Part shown: positions 30,504 to 42,928 of the stretch, piece by piece
How positions within the stretch are numbered: position 1 is the stretch's first letter
Layout of the letters: every line of letters begins with the position of its first letter
Assembly (NCBI RefSeq): GCF_002163585.1
Contig: NZ_CP015579.1
Coordinates: 1,922,001 to 1,986,000 of the forward strand
DNA: 64,000 nt
Direction of reading: 5' to 3'
Source of the DNA: Tatumella citrea
GTDB lineage: Bacteria > Pseudomonadota > Gammaproteobacteria > Enterobacterales > Enterobacteriaceae
The notes under the pieces: generated by a model
What the model was told of the DNA's origin: nothing
Seen by the model: only the letters and a program-made list of their open reading frames with translations
Databases searched by the model: none
Program-made: the position numbers and the translations under genes

Positions 30504-30546
30504 TCCGCTGACCGGTCATGTTTATCAGGCCGGCAGCGGATTTTTT
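30504..30546 (+). terminator. rho-independent terminator of the DoxX/reductase/esterase operon
   Basis: Stem TCCGCTG-CCGG/CCGG-CAGCGGA with one bulged A and a 14-base loop, followed by six T residues. The T run overlaps the stop codon of the convergent RES-domain gene. Confidence 0.85.
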
Positions 30547-31027
30547 ATTCAGCCAGTTCTGCGCTGACTCCCGCGCCCTGATTCCATTGAAATAACACCA
30601 GGTGCCACAGTCCAGGCGCTTTGCGCGAAGGATCTATCAGTCCTGCGGCCCCTAATGCTTCCAGCTGACGCCGTACCCGCCATGAACGGGGAGTATTGCC
30701 GGCAGCGATAATCTCCTGCCACGGGGCAATCGCATCATCAATATTAATTCCGGCATATTGCAGAGCCAGCGGGTCGCGTAGATCGAAAATATTGTTGGCA
30801 GTCACCCGAATCCACAGTATTTCAGTGACTGCTGAGCGCTGATTACGATGTGCCTGCATGGCAACTTCTACGCCTTCGGGTGATGAACTGAGATAAAGTG
30901 TCGGCTGGCCGATGGCAGAATAGCGGCCAGCGGTGACCGGGCCGGACAGCGCATATTGCCGGAAAGCCGGGGCTGTCGCAGGATAAAACAGGCCATCGAC
31001 ACGGGTAAAAATAGTGTGAGTTGTCAT
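30545..31027 (-). CDS. RES-domain protein (NAD+-degrading toxin family), orphan
   Basis: A 160-residue protein with the RES fold pattern: an early Arg in AGRYSAIGQPTLYLSSSPEG, the Glu in VEVAMQAH, and the C-terminal IDPSRKAPGLWHLVLFQWN that carries the conserved Ser. Characterised RES toxins with Xre-type antitoxins degrade NAD+. No such antitoxin gene is next to it. It starts 20 bases after ulaR on the same strand, so it is probably co-transcribed with ulaG-ulaR. Whether it is toxic, or serves as an ADP-ribose or NAD enzyme in metabolism, is open. Confidence 0.7.
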   Translation of the reverse strand: MTTHTIFTRVDGLFYPATAPAFRQYALSGPVTAGRYSAIGQPTLYLSSSPEGVEVAMQAHRNQRSAVTEILWIRVTANNIFDLRDPLALQYAGINIDDAIAPWQEIIAAGNTPRSWRVRRQLEALGAAGLIDPSRKAPGLWHLVLFQWNQGAGVSAELAE

Positions 31028-31047: not shown

Positions 31048-31803
31048 TTATACCAGTACAACCTCGACACCCTGTGCCCGGAGTTGTTGCACGATCTGTG
31101 CATCGGCTTGTTGCCCGGTAATGACCAGATCAATATTTTCAGTGTTGCTAAACAGCATGCCGGCACGCTGTCCCAGCTTACTGCTGTCCACCAGCACACC
31201 CAGCTTCCCAACCATACCGAGCATTCTCTGTTCGGAAACTGCGGTCAGCATATCTGTTTTATACAGGCCCTCGGCTGTCAGCCCCTTACCGCTGGTAAAC
31301 ATCCAGTGTCCGGCATAAAGAGAGTTGCTGCTTTCCTGGGCTGGCAGGATGATTGACTGTTTTTTACTATACTGCCCACCGATAATCACCACGTTTTCAT
31401 GATCATGCTCAATCAGGTAGTTGGCTAACGGCAGGTAATTGGTGATGATTTGTACGGGTTTATTGCAAATCTCCTGGCCCAACAGGAAGGCCGTGGAACC
31501 ACAGTTTATCACCACACTATCCTCGGGACGGATAAAGGTCGCCGCTGTTCTGGCAATTCGTACTTTCTCGTCATGATTAGAAGCCTGATGTGGATTAAGC
31601 GGTACCCAGTGCTCACGTTCCGGAATTACCGCTTCAGCGCCGTTGCGAATTTTTCGAACTTTTCCTTCTTTATCCAGCCGTGCGATATCCCGCCGTGCGG
31701 TTGCCGGAGAAGTACCCAACAATTCAGTAATCTGGCTGACACTGAGAACATTGTGTTCACGCAGTAAATCCAGCAAAAGATAATGTCTCTGTGTTTCCGT
31801 CAT
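31048..31803 (-). CDS. ulaR: DeoR-family repressor of the L-ascorbate regulon, UlaR
   Basis: A 251-residue repressor, the same length as E. coli UlaR. The DeoR-type helix-turn-helix is at about 18-45 ([40 protein letters not shown]). The sugar-phosphate domain has [13 protein letters not shown] and the ISOCOT-fold [13 protein letters not shown]. It represses the ula genes until L-ascorbate-6-phosphate is present. The gene follows ulaG by 63 bases, a gap holding a GCCGGAT/ATCCGGC hairpin. A RES-domain gene follows. Confidence 0.95.
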
Positions 31804-31866: not shown

Positions 31867-32931
31867 TTAAAGAAAAGACTTAAAGGGTAAATCGGGTTCA
31901 ATAGTAAAACAATCATCAAAACCACGAGGATAATGATACTCGAGATTATCTTTATCCAGTGGCCAGATGAATTTGCCGCCAACCTGCCAGATAAACGGTT
32001 TGAAGCCATATTTTAGCCGGTCTTTTTTCATTTCCCAGAGCACGCGAATTTCCTGAGGATCGGCCTGGAAATTTGACCAGATATCATGATGGAAAGGGAT
32101 CACGACCTTAGTGTTTAACGATTCTGCCATGCGCAGCATATCGGCGCTGGTCATTTTGTCTGTAACACCCCGTGGGTTTTCCCCGTAAGAACCCAGTGCC
32201 ACATCAATCTGATATTCGTTACCGTGCCTGGCGTAATAGTTAGAGTAATGAGAGTCACCGCTGTGATACAGATTTCCGCCAGGCGTGTTAAACAGATAGT
32301 TCACTGCGCGCTGATCCATGCCATCCGGCAGCGTACCTGCGGCGGTTTGTTCCACCGGTAAGGTGATCAAAGCCGTCCGGTCAAAGGCCTCAAGTGCATG
32401 TATCGCCACATCTTTAATCTTTACGACATCTCCGGGCTTCATCACGATGCAGCGCTCTTTGGGAACCCCCCAGGCTGTCCACATATCTACACAGGTTTGC
32501 GGGCCAATAAAGGGGACGTCACTGGCACAGTTTTGCATCACTGCGGCAGCTACGTTGACATCGATATGATCGTTATGATCATGGGTGGCAAGTACTGCAT
32601 CAATCTGGCGGATTGCAAACGGATCAAGGACAAAAGGGGTAGTACGCAGGTTGGGCTGGAGTTTTTTTACTCCCGCCATACTTTGCATCTGATGCCCTTG
32701 TTTCATCAGTAAATTCCCATGGCTCTGTTTGCCTGTGCCACACCAGAAGTCGACACAAATATTGGCTCCTCCTTCAGATTTCAGCCAGATTCCGGTGCAC
32801 CCCAACCACCACATGGCAAACGTTCCCTGAGCAACCTGTTCCTGCTCAATCTCTTCGTTCAGCCAACAACCCCATTCCGGGAACGTACTCAGAATCCATG
32901 ATTCTCGGGTGATGGTAGTCACTTTACTCAT
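31867..32931 (-). CDS. ulaG: L-ascorbate-6-phosphate lactonase UlaG
   Basis: Cytosolic metallo-beta-lactamase-fold enzyme that opens the lactone ring of L-ascorbate-6-phosphate to 3-keto-L-gulonate-6-phosphate. The 354-residue sequence has the metal motif THDHNDHID (around 114-122), [11 protein letters not shown] and FHHDIW, and matches E. coli UlaG throughout. It is divergent from ulaA across a 349-base control region and is followed by ulaR, the same order as in E. coli. Confidence 0.95.
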
Positions 32932-34681
<1,750 letters not shown>

Positions 34682-34693
34682 GGAGTATCGAAT

Positions 34694-34999
34694 ATGACCG
34701 TACGGATCCTGGCTGTGTGTGGTAATGGACAAGGCAGTTCTATGATTATGAAAATGAAAGTTGACCAGTTTTTAACCCAGTCAAATATTGACCATACAGT
34801 GAACAGCTGTGCCGTGGGCGAATACAAAAGTGAACTAAATGGCGCGGATATCATCATTGCCTCTACTCATATCGCGGGCGAAATCACGGTGACAGGTAAT
34901 AAATATGTCGTGGGGGTTCGCAACATGTTATCGCCGGCGGATTTCGGACCAAAATTGGTGGAAGTGATTAAGACCCATTTTCCGCAGGATGTGAAGTAA
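34694..34999 (+). CDS. ulaB: PTS L-ascorbate transporter, EIIB component UlaB
   Basis: A 101-residue cytosolic phosphocarrier. The active-site loop [10 protein letters not shown] places the phospho-cysteine at Cys9. The remaining [15 protein letters not shown] and [15 protein letters not shown] match E. coli UlaB (101 residues). It receives phosphate from the EIIA domain and donates it to ascorbate bound by UlaA. It begins 12 bases after ulaA with GGAG upstream. Confidence 0.95.
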
Positions 35000-35008
35000 G
35001 GACACGCC

Positions 35009-36139
35009 ATGAAATTACGTGATTCTCTGACAGATAATAATTCCATTCTGCTACAGGCTGAAGCTGGCAACTGGCAAGAAGCGGTAAAACTGGGGGTAGA
35101 TTTGCTGGTTAAGGCAGATGTTGTGGAACCCCGGTATTACCAGTCAATTCTGGATGGCGTTGCGCAGCACGGGCCGTATTTTGTTATTGCACCCGGACTG
35201 GCGATGCCCCATGGACGTCCGGAAGAGGGTGTCAAAAAGACGGGGTTTTCGCTGGTCACACTGAAAACTCCACTTATCTTTAATCACGAAGACAATGACC
35301 CGGTCGACATTGTTATCACGATGGCCGCCGTAGATGCCACTACCCACCAGGAGGTAGGCATTATGCAGATTGTCAGCCTGTTTGAAGATGAAGCTAATTT
35401 TGATCGGTTACGAGCCTGTCGGACAGAACAGGAGGTACTTGATTTAATTGATCATGCCACGCAGGCAGAAATACAGAAGGAATTGAATATGCCATTACCT
35501 ATGTTGCAGGTTGCACTGGATAATCAGACGTTATCAGACGCCTATGAAACAACCCGGCTGATTGCTGAGGAGGTGGATATTATTGAGGTCGGCACTATCC
35601 TCTGTGTGGGCGAAGGTGTACGGGCAGTACGTGATCTGAAGTCGCTTTATCCGCATAAAATTGTACTGGCAGACGCAAAAATTGCTGACGCAGGCAAAAT
35701 TCTCTCCCGGATGTGTTTTGAAGCTAATGCTGATTGGGTCACCGTGATCTGTTGTGCTGATATAAACACGGCAGGTGGCGCTCTGGAAGTGGCAAAAGAG
35801 TTTGGCGGTGATGTGCAGATTGAACTGACCGGCCACTGGACCTGGGAGCAGGCTGAGGCATGGCATGATGCAGGTATTCAGCAGGTGGTCTATCACCGCA
35901 GTCGTGATGCACAGGCGGCGGGCGTGGCCTGGGGAGATCAGGATATCCGGTCGATTAAACGTCTGAACGATATGGGTTTTAAAGTCACTGTTACCGGAGG
36001 GCTGGCGCTGGAAGATTTACCGATGTTTAAGGAGATTCCGATCCATGTATTTATCGCGGGACGCAGTATTCGCGATGCAGCATCTCCGGTGGAGGCCGCC
36101 CGCCAGTTCAAACGCTCAATCGCTGAGATCTGGGGCTAA
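35009..36139 (+). CDS. ulaCD: UlaC-UlaD fusion: PTS EIIA domain joined to 3-keto-L-gulonate-6-phosphate decarboxylase
   Basis: One open frame of 376 codons covers two proteins that are separate in E. coli. Residues 1 to about 154 are UlaC (EIIA), with the phospho-His in [11 protein letters not shown] (His68) and [19 protein letters not shown]. Residues 161-376 are UlaD, exactly 216 residues as in E. coli, starting [14 protein letters not shown], with the catalytic [10 protein letters not shown] and the phosphate-binding VTGGL and AGRSI segments. The linker [11 protein letters not shown] replaces the expected ulaC stop. An intact ribosome-binding site precedes the internal ATG at 35489, so free UlaD may also be made. 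Confidence 0.93.
35475..35491 (+). promoter_or_regulatory. internal ribosome-binding site and start codon for UlaD
   Basis: AGAAGGA at 35475-35481 lies seven bases before the ATG at 35489-35491, which aligns with the first codon of E. coli UlaD. This is the ancestral ulaD translation signal preserved inside the fused frame. Confidence 0.7.
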
Positions 36140-36148
36140 GGAGCTGCT

Positions 36149-37030
36149 ATGTTGTCGCAACAGGTTCCACTGGGTATCTATGAAAAAGCACTCCCTGCGG
36201 GGGAGTGCTGGCTTCAGCGTCTGCAGCAGGCAAAACAACTGGGTTTTGATTTTGTTGAAATGTCAGTGGATGAGACGGACGCACGTCTTGCCAGGCTCAA
36301 CTGGAGCCGGCAACAGCGCCTGCAACTGGTGAACGCTATATCGGAAACCGGAGTGAAGGTTCCTTCGATGTGTCTCAGTGCACACCGCCGTTTTCCTCTG
36401 GGAAGTGAAAATGATGAGGTACGGGAAAAAGCGCTGGAGATTATGCGAAAGGCGATCGGTTTTGCCCAGGATGTCGGCATCCGCGTCATCCAGCTTGCAG
36501 GCTATGACGTTTATTACCAGCAGGCGAATGACGAGACCCGCCGCCGTTTTCGTGAGGGGCTTAAAGAGAGCATAGTGATGGCCAGTCGTGCTCAGGTCAC
36601 GCTGGCAATGGAGATTATGGATTATCCGTTAATGAACTCTGTCAGTAAGGCGTTGGGGTATACACATTACCTGAACAACCCATGGTTCCAGATCTATCCT
36701 GATCTCGGCAACCTGTCAGCATGGGATAACGACGTACAGCTCGAACTGGAGGCCGGGACAGGGCATATCGTGGCGGTACATGTTAAAGATACCCTGCCGG
36801 GGGTGTTCAAAAATGTCCCTTTCGGTAGCGGCGTGGTGGATTTCGTGCACTGCTTCCGTACCCTGAAACAGGCAGGTTATTCCGGACCTTATCTGATAGA
36901 GATGTGGAGTGAAACCGCGAAAGACCCGGTGGCTGAAGTGATAAAAGCCCGTGCATGGGTACGTGAACGCATGGTACAGGCTGGATTGCTGGAGGCAGAA
37001 GATGATAACCCTGAAACAGCAGGTATTTGA
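36149..37030 (+). CDS. ulaE: L-xylulose-5-phosphate 3-epimerase UlaE
   Basis: A 293-residue TIM-barrel epimerase that converts L-xylulose-5-phosphate to L-ribulose-5-phosphate. Family features: [15 protein letters not shown] at the start, [29 protein letters not shown], the metal-binding EIMD, and [20 protein letters not shown], as in E. coli UlaE (284 residues). The C-terminal tail is a few residues longer and overlaps ulaF by 29 bases. AGGAG lies just upstream of the ATG. Confidence 0.95.
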
Positions 37031-37688
37031 GGCAAACAAGGACCTTCCTCGCTATGGTCTGGTCACTTTCACCTGGGGGAATGTCAGCGCTATTGATCGC
37101 CATCAGGGGCTGGTGGTGATTAAGCCGAGTGGCGTTGCGTATGACGCGATGACCGTCGATGATATGGTCGTGCTGGATACTGAAGGGAATATCGTTGATG
37201 GTAAATGGCGACCTTCCTCAGATACCGCCACCCATCTGGAATTGTACCGGCGCTATCCTTCACTGGGGGGGATTGTTCACACTCACTCGACACATGCCAC
37301 CGCCTGGGCACAGGCAGGGCTGTCAATTCCGGCACTCGGCACCACACATGCTGACTATTTCCTGGGGAATATTCCCTGCACCAGGGCATTAACACAACAG
37401 GAAGTTGAGGGAGAGTACGAGCTGAATACCGGTAAAGTGATTATCGAAACCCTGGCAGAGCAAAACCCTCTGCATAACCCCGGGGTCATTGTTTACCAGC
37501 ATGGCCCCTTTGCCTGGGGGAAAGATGCTCATGATGCCGTGCATAATGCGGTAGTTCTTGAAGAAGTGGCACGAATCGCCTGGATTGCCTGCGGGATTAA
37601 TCCCGGTCTTCGGCACATCGAACCTTATCTGATGAAAAAACATTTTATGCGGAAACATGGGCCTGATGCCTGTTACGGGCAGAAATAA
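37002..37688 (+). CDS. ulaF: L-ribulose-5-phosphate 4-epimerase UlaF
   Basis: A 228-residue class II aldolase-fold epimerase giving D-xylulose-5-phosphate, the end of the ascorbate route. The N-terminus [20 protein letters not shown] matches E. coli UlaF, so the start is set at 37002 (GGAGG 8 bases upstream) rather than at an open ATG at 36951. Zinc ligands are in [12 protein letters not shown] and later QHGPFAWG. Last gene of the operon; a 24-base palindrome follows at 37797. Confidence 0.95.
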
Positions 37689-37834: not shown

Positions 37835-39166
37835 TTATTTACCCGAAGGCGTAACCAGTGTTGGAGGATTGTCTGTTGCTGCTGATTTTCTCCGGCTAAG
37901 GAAGGCATTAAGTAATATCGCACCGAAGGTTGCAGTGCCGATACCGCCCAGGGTGAAACTACCGATTTTCAGGGCAAAATCACCTGCACCCAGTACCAGC
38001 GTTACCGCGACCATAATCAGGTTGCCGTTGCGGTTCAGATCAACATTATTCTGTACCCAGATCCTTGCGCCAGCGACCGCTATCAGCCCGAAAACAACAA
38101 TTGAAGCTCCGCCAATCACGGGGCCCGGGATGGTGTGGATCAGTGCTCCAAACTTCGGTGAAAATCCGAGTAGCAGGGCGATGACAGAGGCTGCCACAAA
38201 AGCCAGGGTTGAATAGACTTTGGTGACTGCCATCACGCCGATGTTCTCAGCATAGGTAGTCACACCGCTGCCGCCGACACCGCCGGACAGCATGGTGGCC
38301 AGTCCATCGGCGAAGAAAGCCCGGCCAACGTACGGGTCAAGATTACGTCCGGTCATACCCGCCACCGCTTTCATATGACCAAGGTTTTCAGCTACCAGAA
38401 TAATCGCCACGGGTGCAATCATAACAATCGCCTGCCAGTCAAACACAGGCGCTGTGGTGGCAGGCAGTCCAAACCAGGGAGCAGCTGACAGTTGTGAGAA
38501 GTCTACGGGTTTACCCAGCCCCAGGCCATTTGTCAGCACAGCATAGACAGCCCAGGCCAGACAAAGACCGACCAGCAGTAACAGTTTCTGGATAAGCCCG
38601 CGGGTAAACACTGCCACGATACCAATACAAACCACGGTAATCACAGCCATCCAGCTGTCAAACATCGAGCCAGAAACACTGTGAATAGCGATGGGGGCCA
38701 GATTGAGACCAATAGCCATCACCACCGCGCCGGTGACGACCGGAGGCATAAGCTTTTCGATCCACAGGGCACCGGATTTCATAACCACCAGGCCTATCAC
38801 TGCGTATACTGCACCGCAGGCAATAATACCGCCGAGCGCCAGCCCAAGATGAGGATTCAGCCCTTGCCCGGTAAATCCTGTTACAGCAATCACCACACCA
38901 ACAAAAGAGGCGCTGGAGCCGAGATAACTGGGAACCCGTCCGCCGGTAATCAGAAAGAACAGCAGGGTGCCTATGCCGGACATCAGAATGCTGAGATTAG
39001 GGTCCAGACCCATCAGTAATGGCATCAGTACCGTCGCACCAAACATCGCAACCGCATGTTGCAACCCCATAACCACCGTTGGGCCGAAGGGCAGCGTTTC
39101 ATCAGGAGCGATGACACCATCTCCGCTGAGAGTTGTTTTTTTACGCCATACAGGAAACCAGCTCAT
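37835..39166 (-). CDS. rutG: pyrimidine permease RutG
   Basis: Nucleobase:cation symporter-2 family uracil transporter of 443 residues, inner membrane. Typical stretches are LQHAVAMFGATVLMPLLMGLDP, SYLGSSASFVGVV, AENLGHMKAVAGMTGRNLDPY and GGVGGSGVTTYAENIGVMAVTKVYS, matching E. coli RutG (442). The start ATG at 39166 fits the E. coli length; an in-frame TTG at 39211 is less likely. Last gene of rutABCDFG. Confidence 0.95.
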   Translation of the reverse strand: MSWFPVWRKKTTLSGDGVIAPDETLPFGPTVVMGLQHAVAMFGATVLMPLLMGLDPNLSILMSGIGTLLFFLITGGRVPSYLGSSASFVGVVIAVTGFTGQGLNPHLGLALGGIIACGAVYAVIGLVVMKSGALWIEKLMPPVVTGAVVMAIGLNLAPIAIHSVSGSMFDSWMAVITVVCIGIVAVFTRGLIQKLLLLVGLCLAWAVYAVLTNGLGLGKPVDFSQLSAAPWFGLPATTAPVFDWQAIVMIAPVAIILVAENLGHMKAVAGMTGRNLDPYVGRAFFADGLATMLSGGVGGSGVTTYAENIGVMAVTKVYSTLAFVAASVIALLLGFSPKFGALIHTIPGPVIGGASIVVFGLIAVAGARIWVQNNVDLNRNGNLIMVAVTLVLGAGDFALKIGSFTLGGIGTATFGAILLNAFLSRRKSAATDNPPTLVTPSGK

Positions 39167-39223
39167 AGACTTTGTACTCCGGTAAAGTGGAAAAGCAATG
39201 AATGCCAGCAACTGGCTTCGTCA

Positions 39224-39745
39224 TCAGGCTTCCTGCCGGGTCAGGGAGTGATAGCGTCGGTCGAACCACACCAGTCCATGCGGTGTGTGGTCACAGACCA
39301 GGGCCTGCACCTGACAAAACAAAATATCGTGTGTCCCGACGCTGACACTTTGGGTAATTTCACAGTCAAAAGAAGCAACAGCCCCCGTCAGTACCGGGCA
39401 ACCGGTAATCAGTTCAGACCATTGTGCTGCCGCAAACCGATCGGTCATTGGGGTTTTACCCCCAAACAGCCCCGACAGCTCCTGATGATCGCCAGACAGG
39501 GTATTGACACATAACCGACCATTGGCGTGGAAAACTGGCCAAACCGATGCTGAACGATTCAGGCAAACCAGCAGTGTTGGCGGTGTATCTGTCACACTGC
39601 ATACTGCCGATGCGGTAAAACCGGCCTGGCCCGCAGGTCCGTCGGTGGTGATAATATTGACGGCTGCCCCAAGACGTGACATCGCATTACGAAACTGCTG
39701 TTGATCAACCCCGTCCGGTAACGGGGCCAGCTCAGAAACGTTCAT
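39224..39745 (-). CDS. rutF: NADH-dependent flavin reductase RutF
   Basis: A 173-residue reductase that supplies reduced FMN to RutA. The family pattern is clear: [63 protein letters not shown] and FDCEI. AAGGAG lies 6 bases before the ATG at 39745. It follows rutD directly; in E. coli rutE stands between them, but here rutE is elsewhere (44195-44785). Confidence 0.94.
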
Positions 39746-39774
39746 CTGTGCTCCTTATCTGAAATCAATACGTT

Positions 39775-40557
39775 TCAGGCTGCATGCTGTTCAAGCCAAG
39801 GTAACAGCAACTGGTTAAATTCATCAGGGTAAGTGACACTCATTGCATGTCCCCCCCTGGCCATCGCTGCCACGCTGGATTGCGGCAGAGCATCTGCCAG
39901 CACGACAGAACAGCCCCAGGGCACCAGTAAGTCATCCTGGCTATAGAAAACTAACACCGGCAGGTTGAGAGTGGGTGCGATCCGGGTGAAATCGCAGGCC
40001 ATAAGTGCATTCAGACGACGCAGCAGGTTGTCAGTACCCTGGAAATGCTCTGCATGACTGATATCTTCAGCTTCAAGCCGCTGTTGATTGTCAGCCATCC
40101 AGTCAGCAGGATAGAGAAACAGTGGCTGGGCGCGGACAAAGGCTTCCACTCCAACATTCAGCAACAGTTGCTGGCGGACCTCAAAACAGCGACGGGTATG
40201 TGCATTCAGAGAGATCCAGCCATTAATCACTACCACACCAGTCACTCGTTGCGGATAGCTGGCCGCCAGTTGCAAACCAATCAGCCCGCCCAGAGCGTGG
40301 CCTGCCACGCAATAGCGGTGAATACCGTGGGCTTCGAGTGCGGCGGCCAGTTCATCCGCCATTTGTTGCATAGAGTAATTTTCAGGCAGCGAGTCCGGGT
40401 TATTCCCGGTTCCGCGCTGGTCATAAGTTACCACTTTATATTTACCGGTCAGCGCAGCCATCTGGGGTTTCCAGAAAGCCGCCGCGCCGCCCAGCCCGGC
40501 GGATAGCACCACCACCGGAGCGTCAGGAGAATCAACACCGGAGATCTGTATCTGCAT
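39775..40557 (-). CDS. rutD: aminoacrylate hydrolase RutD
   Basis: A 260-residue alpha/beta hydrolase that speeds conversion of aminoacrylate to malonic semialdehyde and ammonia. VVLSAGLGGAAAFWKPQ and YDQRGTGNNPDSLPENYS are hallmarks of RutD, as is CVAGHALGGLIGLQLA in place of the classical nucleophile elbow. It starts two bases after the rutC stop, indicating coupled translation. Confidence 0.93.
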   Translation of the reverse strand: MQIQISGVDSPDAPVVVLSAGLGGAAAFWKPQMAALTGKYKVVTYDQRGTGNNPDSLPENYSMQQMADELAAALEAHGIHRYCVAGHALGGLIGLQLAASYPQRVTGVVVINGWISLNAHTRRCFEVRQQLLLNVGVEAFVRAQPLFLYPADWMADNQQRLEAEDISHAEHFQGTDNLLRRLNALMACDFTRIAPTLNLPVLVFYSQDDLLVPWGCSVVLADALPQSSVAAMARGGHAMSVTYPDEFNQLLLPWLEQHAA

Positions 40558-40559
40558 AT

Positions 40560-40952
40560 TTAAGCCTGCTTACCGACATGGGCGATGGTGGCAATCTCTA
40601 CCAATGCGTCCGGTTTCACCAGACCACACTGGATACAGAAACGGGCCGGCTTTTCACCCAGGAAAAATTCGGCATACACCTGATTTACCGCCGCATAGTT
40701 TTGCCAGTCAGTAATAAAAATGGAATTGAATGTCACGTCATCCATAGTCCCACCCGCTGTTTCAATCACATTTTTAATAATGGTCAGTACGTGCCGGGTT
40801 TGAGCTGCAGCATCACCTACATGAACCACGTTATTATTTTCATCGAAGGGAAGCGTCCCGGACACATAAACGACACCATCTGCCAGCGTTCCCGGAACAA
40901 ACGGGGCGATAGGGGTGCTGGTACCGGCGGGGATGATCACAGACTTTGGCAT
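40560..40952 (-). CDS. rutC: 3-aminoacrylate deaminase RutC
   Basis: A 130-residue RidA/YjgF-family protein: [40 protein letters not shown], a central [17 protein letters not shown] and a C-terminal [19 protein letters not shown] that carries the conserved Arg and Cys. It deaminates the peroxyaminoacrylate/aminoacrylate product of RutB. AAAGGAA lies 8 bases upstream of the ATG. Trimeric in characterised relatives. Confidence 0.94.
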
Positions 40953-40999
40953 ATTAATGTTCCTTTTATTATCAGTTGCAGGTGATGAAAATCCGGAAT

Positions 41000-41737
41000 T
41001 CAGGCAGCCGGACGTTCCTGTTCAGAAACCGGCGCAATGGCGCTACAAAAACTGCTGACATCAGAGACCCAGCCGAAAAATGTCTGGATATTAAACAGAG
41101 CAGCTTCATGGGCTGAAGATGGGCCAGCCTGATAGGTAGCGTCTTCCAGCACAATGCCAAAATATTCGAGGAAAAAGCCGTCACGCAGCGTGGATTCCAC
41201 ACAAACATTGGTGGCGATGCCGGTAAATATCAGATGGCGGATACCACGGCTACGCAGCATGCTGTCCAGCGGAGTGTTATAGAAACCGCTGTAGCGGATC
41301 TTCGGGATAATAATGTCTTCCGGCTCAGGCACCAGTTCATCAACCAACTGATAGTCCCAGCCGCCTTTTGACAGCAGTTTTCCCTGTAAATCGGGATTTT
41401 TGCGCATGGTTTTTAGCGCATTCGATTTATGGAAATTGGGTGATCCTGCGTCACCGGCTTCAACATACTGGTCATCCCAGCCATTCTGGAACCAGATAAT
41501 CTGAATACCGGCAGCACGCGCGGCCTCAACGGCTGTTTTGATATTGGCAATCACCGGTTTGGTTGCGGATACATCGAATCCTGCCAGATCCAGATAACCG
41601 CCGGTAGTGGCGTAGGCATTTTGCATATCCACAACAATCAACGCTGTCTGGTGGGGCGGGAAAGCAATGGATTCAGGCTTTGCAGCGACAACCACATTAT
41701 TTAACTGACTGGCAGTAGAACAAATCACAGTATTCAT
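41000..41737 (-). CDS. rutB: ureidoacrylate amidohydrolase RutB
   Basis: A 245-residue isochorismatase-fold hydrolase that splits ureidoacrylate into carbamate and aminoacrylate. The catalytic Asp is in [10 protein letters not shown], the Lys in [19 protein letters not shown], and the nucleophilic Cys in [20 protein letters not shown]. It starts within the rutA stop codon (TGATG), so the two genes are translationally coupled. Confidence 0.95.
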
Positions 41738-42828
41738 CAGGCCACCTCTTTCATTGCTTCAGTTACGGCGCTCCGGCTGGTCATCAACGGCTGGATACGC
41801 TGTCCAAAATTCTCAATACCCTGAACAAAATCATCAAATGTCAGCAAAATCCCTTCGGCACCTTCCACGGTAGCCACTTCATCCAGCATTTTTGCAACTG
41901 AGGCATAAGACCCTACCAGGGTGCCCATATTGATGTTCACTGCTGAAGTTGGATCGGCCATCTGGCGCACATTGGTGTCACTTCCGGAACGGGTATCCTG
42001 CTGGCTCTGGGTGGTCAGCCAGGCGAGCGCTTCCTGATCTGCACCGGCTTTATAGTGTTCCCACTTAGCACGCGCTGCTTCATCGGTTTCGTCGGCAATA
42101 ATCATAAACAGCACATAGGAACCGACATCACGACCGGCTTTATCCGCGGCACTTTTCATGCGTGCCGCAGTTGGAGCAAAGGCGGTTGGGGTATTTACTC
42201 CCTTACCAAAACAGAAATTGTAATCGGCATATTGTGCAGAGAAGGCCATTCCGGCATCACTCTGCCCGGCACAAATAACTTTCATTGGTTTCTGTGGCTG
42301 AGGACTCAGACGACAATCATTCATCGTCAGAAAATCCCCTTTGAAATCAGATTTACCGGTACCCCATAAATCGCGCAGTACCGTGACATATTCGGTCAGA
42401 TAGTCGTAACGACGGGAAAAGTACTCTTCACCCGGCCAGAGGCCCATCTGGTCGTACTCTGGCTTTTGCCAGCCGGTCACCAGATTCACGCCGAAGCGAC
42501 CACCAGAAATGCTGTCAACGGTGCTGGCCATTCTGGCAACAATGGCGGGTGGCAGGGTCAGAGTGGCTGCCGTGGCATAAATCTCGATGCGCGAAGTTAC
42601 CGCAGCCAGACCAGCCATCAGAGTGAAGGACTCCAGATTGTGGTCCCAGAATTCAGTTTTACCGCCGAAACCACGTAGTTTGATCATCGACAGTGCGAAA
42701 TCGAAATGGTAATGCTCGGCCCGCTGAACGATGGTTTTGTTCAGTTCAAAACTTGGCATATATTGCGGGGCGTTTTCAGAAATCAGCCAGCCATTATTAC
42801 CAATCGGGATAAAGACGCCTATTTTCAT
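41737..42828 (-). CDS. rutA: pyrimidine (uracil) monooxygenase RutA
   Basis: Flavin-dependent luciferase-family enzyme that opens the uracil ring between N3 and C4 using O2 and reduced FMN from RutF. From the ATG at 42828 the protein has 363 residues, the current length of E. coli RutA, beginning [22 protein letters not shown]. Other matches are [36 protein letters not shown] and [21 protein letters not shown] lies 7 bases upstream. A longer frame to 42894 has no support. First gene of the operon, 100 bases downstream of a sigma-54 promoter. Confidence 0.96.
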
Positions 42829-42928
42829 GTCAAACCTCGTCTGATGAATGTTTAAAGTTTCACCTGTCGGCGGCGGTGCATCCTGCATCTCCATGGGTCG
42901 TCGCTGAGTCGTGTGTACCTGTATTGTT

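Follow-up and report, generated by a model that had tools for sequence, protein, structure and literature searches.

An in-frame ulaC-ulaD gene fusion in the ascorbate operon of Tatumella, most simply explained by loss of the ulaC stop codon

The L-ascorbate operon of Escherichia coli, whose gene order we take to be ulaABCDEF with ulaG and ulaR, holds the same genes as the locus described here. In six of six Escherichia loci ulaC and ulaD are separate and out of frame with one another, unlike the arrangement found in Tatumella, whereas AGAAGGAATTGAA, which stands ahead of ulaD in five of the six, is shared with it. Ascorbate metabolism and an L-ascorbate PTS have been listed among the traits in which Pantoea and Tatumella differ, both from each other and internally (PMC5808187), and the words 'fusion' and 'ula' are absent from the main text of that paper. 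A ulaC-ulaD fusion is likewise not described in the titles and opening lines of the abstracts that were searched, which covered few subscription papers.

The window, by which we mean the whole stretch of 64,000 nucleotides of Tatumella citrea DNA that was analysed, is part of contig 1 in a 4.49-Mb genome and contains a complete ula operon as judged by Pfam and NCBIfam, with ulaR and ulaG divergent and followed by ulaA, ulaB, a ulaC-ulaD fusion, ulaE and ulaF (Table 1). The fused frame encodes 376 amino acids with no internal stop, and Pfam places PTS_EIIA_2 at residues 7-149 and OMPdecase at residues 164-367. UlaC is not a separate soluble protein here, there being no stop ahead of UlaD. The UlaC part scores 309.8 bits against a cut-off of 187 with the UlaC equivalog model NF007694 (residues 1-153), and the UlaD part passes both OMPdecase PF00215 (155.3 against 27) and the UlaD-type model NF009832 (329 against 250). 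It falls below the cut-off of the narrower UlaD equivalog NF009831 (270.8 bits against 294) which, given about 90% identity to the solved E. coli enzyme, we take to be a matter of that model's cut-off. A preliminary description of this DNA, made from the sequence alone, had reported an in-frame fusion with a full 216-residue UlaD, a retained ulaD ribosome-binding site and possible products of 41 and 23 kDa, and had noted that the two genes are separate in E. coli. The sequence bears this out: the 216 residues of the UlaD part align over their whole length with the E. coli enzyme (UlaD, 1kv8), the ribosome site is in place, the calculated masses of 41.4 kDa for the fusion and 23.7 kDa for free UlaD fit those proposed, and the genes are separate in Escherichia and in nearly all relatives examined. 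There is no stop codon between positions 35450 and 35490, and separate genes are not the rule in all relatives, as a sister species carries the fusion too.

Table 1. Features of the ula operon in the window and of the ulaC-ulaD join.
Feature	Position	Strand	Basis or remark
ulaR, repressor	31048..31803	-	Divergent; Pfam/NCBIfam
ulaG, ascorbate-6-phosphate lactonase	31867..32931	-	Divergent; Pfam/NCBIfam
ulaA, ascorbate PTS IIC	33281..34681	+	Pfam/NCBIfam
ulaB, ascorbate PTS IIB	34694..34999	+	Pfam/NCBIfam
ulaC-ulaD fusion gene	35009..36139	+	376 codons and stop; open reading frame listing and Pfam/NCBIfam
EIIA(Asc)/UlaC part	35009..35455	+	Residues 1-149 (UlaC about 1-150)
Codon 156, CAG	35474..35476	+	Opposite the TAA that ends ulaC in four relatives
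AGAAGGA, retained ulaD ribosome-binding site	35475..35481	+	Seven bases ahead of the old ATG at 35489
UlaD part	35489..36136	+	Residues 161-376, starting at the old ATG
ulaE, 3-epimerase	36149..37030	+	NCBIfam; 29-base overlap with the start of ulaF
ulaF, 4-epimerase	37002..37688	+	Pfam/NCBIfam

The residues expected for both activities are retained. His68, which we take to be the phosphorylated histidine of EIIA(Asc), is present at the expected position, and the UlaD catalytic set (D11, E33, D62, K64, D67, E112, H136, T169 and R192; add 160 for the numbering in the fusion) is complete. K64, E112, H136 and T169 are positions altered in solved E. coli UlaD mutants and are wild type in the fusion; D11, E33, D62, D67 and R192 are presumably catalytic residues as well. 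On the strength of these families and conserved residues, the EIIA half would still pass phosphate to UlaB and the UlaD half would still decarboxylate 3-keto-L-gulonate 6-phosphate.

Several features of the surrounding DNA deserve mention in their own right. The overlap between ulaE and ulaF, which lie in different frames, recurs in the annotation of a Pantoea agglomerans plasmid, and ulaE of Tatumella morbirosei ends ten codons earlier, just ahead of the GTG start of ulaF. Directly behind ulaR is a gene with a RES domain, a toxin-like family (30545-31027), with no evident partner gene adjoining it among the small open reading frames listed there; T. morbirosei has a homologous open reading frame in the corresponding position. 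At 37835-42894 lies a pyrimidine-use operon in which NCBIfam identifies rutA, B, C, D, F and G among the six open reading frames scanned; the gap between rutD and rutF is 29 bases, into which no gene fits, and rutE is therefore missing at that place. The same genome encodes a second UlaD-like decarboxylase, 48% identical (contig 1, 536923-537570), with no UlaC within the 3.6 kb around it.

The fusion is shared within the genus. T. morbirosei LMG 23360 (NZ_JPKR02000003.1) has the same open join at 94% identity, with the same CAG at codon 156, and a public protein cluster of 17 member sequences (P0002) is a third open version at 93% identity, in which the join residues read EPTGESN as against EIQKELN in the window. 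In a tree of 92 rows the three form one clade with support of 100/100, nested among sequences from Enterobacter, Klebsiella, Lelliottia and Citrobacter; the bootstrap of this tree had not settled (0.976), and the tree left out the Pantoea loci, P0004, P0005, P0007, P0009 and one locus in which the UlaC match starts at residue 50. Because T. morbirosei has the same fusion and P0002 groups with both, this is confirmed as a real in-frame gene fusion and not a base error. In two further genomes of the genus the ula pair is divergent in sequence (65-66% identical) and has a stop, and two of the six genus genomes searched gave no match at 1e-60. Such a pattern would fit a history in which the window lineage acquired an operon of Enterobacteriaceae type and the fusion arose on its branch.

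In a codon alignment, CAG156 stands opposite TAA, with no insertion or deletion, in P. agglomerans, Enterobacter asburiae, Klebsiella indica and Citrobacter werkmanii. In Pantoea and Enterobacter, ulaC and ulaD share one frame with the same spacing as in the window. The Pantoea locus, on plasmid p33.1_1, has the same gene order and its ulaD ATG lies exactly 480 bases after the ulaC ATG but, in contrast to the window, its join (ATAAAV*QELNMSLPM) has TAA at codon 156 and two genes are annotated; its operon DNA is 78.2% identical to the window, less than the 80.3% of E. asburiae. Since CAG156 aligns with TAA in relatives of the same frame and spacing, loss of a stop codon would most simply explain the fusion. 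As in the closest relatives with separate genes, the ancestral ulaC and ulaD would have shared a frame and the stop of ulaC would have stood 15 bases ahead of the ulaD ATG, and TAA would have become a sense codon, now CAG, probably by way of CAA. The lost stop overlaps the ribosome site, which reads TAAGAGG in E. asburiae and CAGAAGG in the window. A Kluyvera-like join that lost a net four bases would be equally long and is a possible source, so that the exact mutational path is not fixed; the same-length alignment of TAA with CAG is simpler.

Retention of the stop is the rule. A sample of 392 genomes of the family yielded 120 with this type of ulaD, made up of 52 with full-length matches at 65% identity or more and 68 with a separate ulaD (at least 75%), and only two of the 120, T. 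citrea and T. morbirosei, carry the fusion, as counted from the match table with joins read in part. The other 50 of the 52 have at least one in-frame stop; this count leaves aside one genome at 44% identity with two stops. In the 68, the ulaD match lies apart from ulaC in open frames of 212-300 amino acids, too short for both parts, except in G154 and G322. These two were considered as long-linker fusions ('open frame 420') and rejected, as TAA directly follows UlaC in both. Among the best 80 of 136 confirmed loci the stop is missing only in T. morbirosei; these 80 were ranked in favour of same-frame pairs, and so give no measure of how often the frame is shared. No UlaC was placed for three of the loci read (L014, L016 and L031, the last being the second UlaD-like decarboxylase of T. 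citrea). A sample at the level of the order, overlapping that of the family, gave a stop in 11 of 12 near-whole-query matches, the exception being T. citrea itself. One place covers at least 80% of the query in 22 of 42 plasmid records, and the annotation of the best 30 gives no sign of a fusion; of three plasmids opened, two have separate ulaC and ulaD and one, from E. coli, has ulaC annotated and ulaD not.

AGAAGGA and the old ulaD ATG, together with the codons that follow, fall in the longest run of identity between the window and T. morbirosei in this gene, 39 bases at 35473-35511, at a synonymous divergence (dS) of about 0.6-0.7. A run of that length at the old UlaD ATG arose in 462 of 20000 codon shuffles; a run of at least 39 identical bases anywhere in the gene arose in 8495 of 20000 and, with one species pair compared, the evidence from conservation is therefore moderate. 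Over 40 bases, the starts of the operon have 39 (internal ulaD), 38 (ulaB), 35 (ulaE), 34 (ulaC) and 34 (ulaF) identical positions. Because the join residues of P0002 differ, some bases of the ribosome site must differ in that cluster, which is represented by protein only.

The pairing energy of AGAAGGA with the 16S tail is -5.7, close to that of the ulaC start (-5.8), and the internal ulaD site is the weakest of six operon starts compared. Taken alone the site is unremarkable, as 31 of 329 in-frame internal ATGs in window open reading frames equal or beat it, and strength as proof of use was rejected. Within the UlaC part, Met119 is preceded by a stronger ribosome-site-like AGGAGG (-11.6), and strength is therefore no predictor of use. 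The energy for opening the internal start is ordinary: 31 of 83 separate genes have a value no higher than that of the window, and 34 of 83 one no higher than that of T. morbirosei. By minimum folding energy, the window folds more weakly than 78 of the 83 separate genes and T. morbirosei more weakly than 82; weaker folding as a sign of adaptation was discarded, the opening energy being ordinary and base composition uncontrolled.

It could be that only the 41-kDa fusion is made and that the internal ribosome site is a useless leftover. A strength within the range of random internal ATGs and the ordinary opening energy agree with this, whereas the site has stayed unchanged inside the 39-base run despite the divergence around it and nearly matches the ulaC start in strength; we consider this reading unlikely, though a serious competitor. 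Since the two species have kept the internal ribosome site without change, it probably still serves for the production of free UlaD. The internal site would then give some free 23.7-kDa UlaD beside the 41-kDa fusion, and three kinds of UlaD dimer could form (fusion/fusion, fusion/free and free/free). Ordinary termination, on the other hand, cannot yield free EIIA from this gene, because the frame is open through UlaD. For the same reason ascorbate uptake, if it works, would depend either on EIIA in its tethered form or on another EIIA that acts across systems, which leads to the sharp prediction that uptake here relies on an EIIA unavailable as a free protein from the fusion gene.

Between the window and T. 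morbirosei, the UlaC part has a dN/dS of 0.030 and the UlaD part one of 0.060, in line with 0.014-0.077 for the other six ula genes and 0.036 and 0.013 for two neighbouring genes. These ratios indicate that both domains are under purifying selection. A predicted model shows both known folds, matching 1q6l at 1.4 Å (UlaD) and 3bjv at 2.7 Å, with a helix (140-159) that spans the site of the lost stop; the first strand of UlaD starts at residue 165. The loop with the active histidine (58-72) is of low confidence, and the pTM of 0.59 leaves the relative placement of the domains undefined.

The preliminary description saw in the fusion a coupling of uptake phosphorylation to an enzyme two steps later. 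The tether itself, of a transport domain to a catabolic enzyme, does hold for the protein that the gene encodes. One may suppose that the tether was selected, either for such coupling to catabolism or because it fixes the ratio of the two activities, and each of the three clade members seen does carry the fusion, the frame is open and both halves are under purifying selection. However, UlaG works between uptake phosphorylation and the UlaD step and is encoded separately, the join residues vary in P0002, the fusion is rare in the family sample and the model leaves the orientation of the domains unfixed. As the change needs just one stop loss, many relatives have the two genes in one frame and comparable fusions apparently arose in other lineages too, coupling as a working arrangement is not supported, and selection for the tether is doubtful. 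A more elaborate version, in which a dual-product gene supplies the fusion and free UlaD at a set ratio, a UlaD dimer bears anything from no EIIA domain to two, and EIIA phosphorylation influences the decarboxylase or places it at UlaA, we hold to be more doubtful still. Decay of the operon, with the fusion as an early step of gene loss, would sit with the two genus genomes that gave no match, but internal stops are absent from all eight ula parts compared, in both species, and the dN/dS values are the low ones given above, making it very improbable. Most likely the fusion is a tolerated, near-neutral change fixed in the lineage and not a channelling adaptation. Taken as a whole, a fusion by stop loss, with both halves working, free UlaD probably made and little effect on fitness, is the explanation that we favour with reasonable confidence; our estimates for the competing explanations overlap, and their total is not one.

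Other fusions of this kind exist among public proteins. A protein search gave 712 matches, and 20 of the best 120 (P0002-P0021) have both Pfam domains. In eight of these (P0002-P0009) UlaC is essentially intact to the join, with the last residues altered in P0006-P0009. P0003-P0009 resemble the window protein in having the UlaC part and a full UlaD in one chain of 375-376 amino acids; the three that were in the tree (P0003, P0006 and P0008) are not part of the Tatumella clade, and P0003 groups with C. werkmanii. We read P0003-P0005 as TAA changed to CAA or AAA (Q or K) in Citrobacter-like genes and P0006-P0009 as one-base frame shifts near the end of UlaC, origins that are deduced from the proteins and may be affected by errors in single assemblies. 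EIIA-UlaD fusions thus read would have arisen elsewhere, apparently independently, and the arrangement, proposed earlier as new for this pathway, is not unique. A second search with residues 100-230 placed P0002-P0009 on top and found no further intact EIIA-UlaD fusion among the best 120 of 190 matches. UlaD-UlaE fusions are also among the proteins listed (P0027, 30 members) and, because both kinds occur, fusions of neighbours in the ula operon look like a recurring accident. Of those seen here, only the Tatumella fusion extends across species.

The remaining 12 two-domain proteins were not counted as intact fusions: P0017 lacks its N-terminus, beginning at about residue 76, and in the other eleven (P0010-P0016 and P0018-P0021) UlaC is disrupted by a frameshift or a deletion. 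In P0010-P0016 and P0019-P0021 an E. coli-like ulaC is apparently frameshifted at several points, with a hybrid frame into ulaD, and one such cluster has 120 members. These eleven of 20 indicate that errors or broken alleles are common here in the databases, but the open join and CAG codon shared with T. morbirosei, and the open P0002, make a sequencing or assembly error as the source of the Tatumella join the least credible explanation of all.

The locus illustrates cleanly, and in nature, how a fusion protein can arise in bacteria from two operon genes in the same frame, with one stop lost and the old start kept, and since related species keep the stop, both the step and its cost are directly testable in E. 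coli. It consists of known domains in a known operon with an unusual join, and a functional effect of that join on the pathway is unsupported. Two described systems provide a comparison. The bifunctional HxlAB (NF041755; solved enzyme 9lj9) likewise joins a barrel of the UlaD superfamily to a neighbouring protein of its pathway, but its partner is an isomerase and there is no PTS domain, and the window protein scores 126.6 against a cut-off of 500. In FruB, a fused PTS IIA/HPr (NF008319), an EIIA is joined to another protein as it is here, but that partner is a phosphocarrier and not a catabolic enzyme, and the window protein scores 37.8 against a cut-off of 302.
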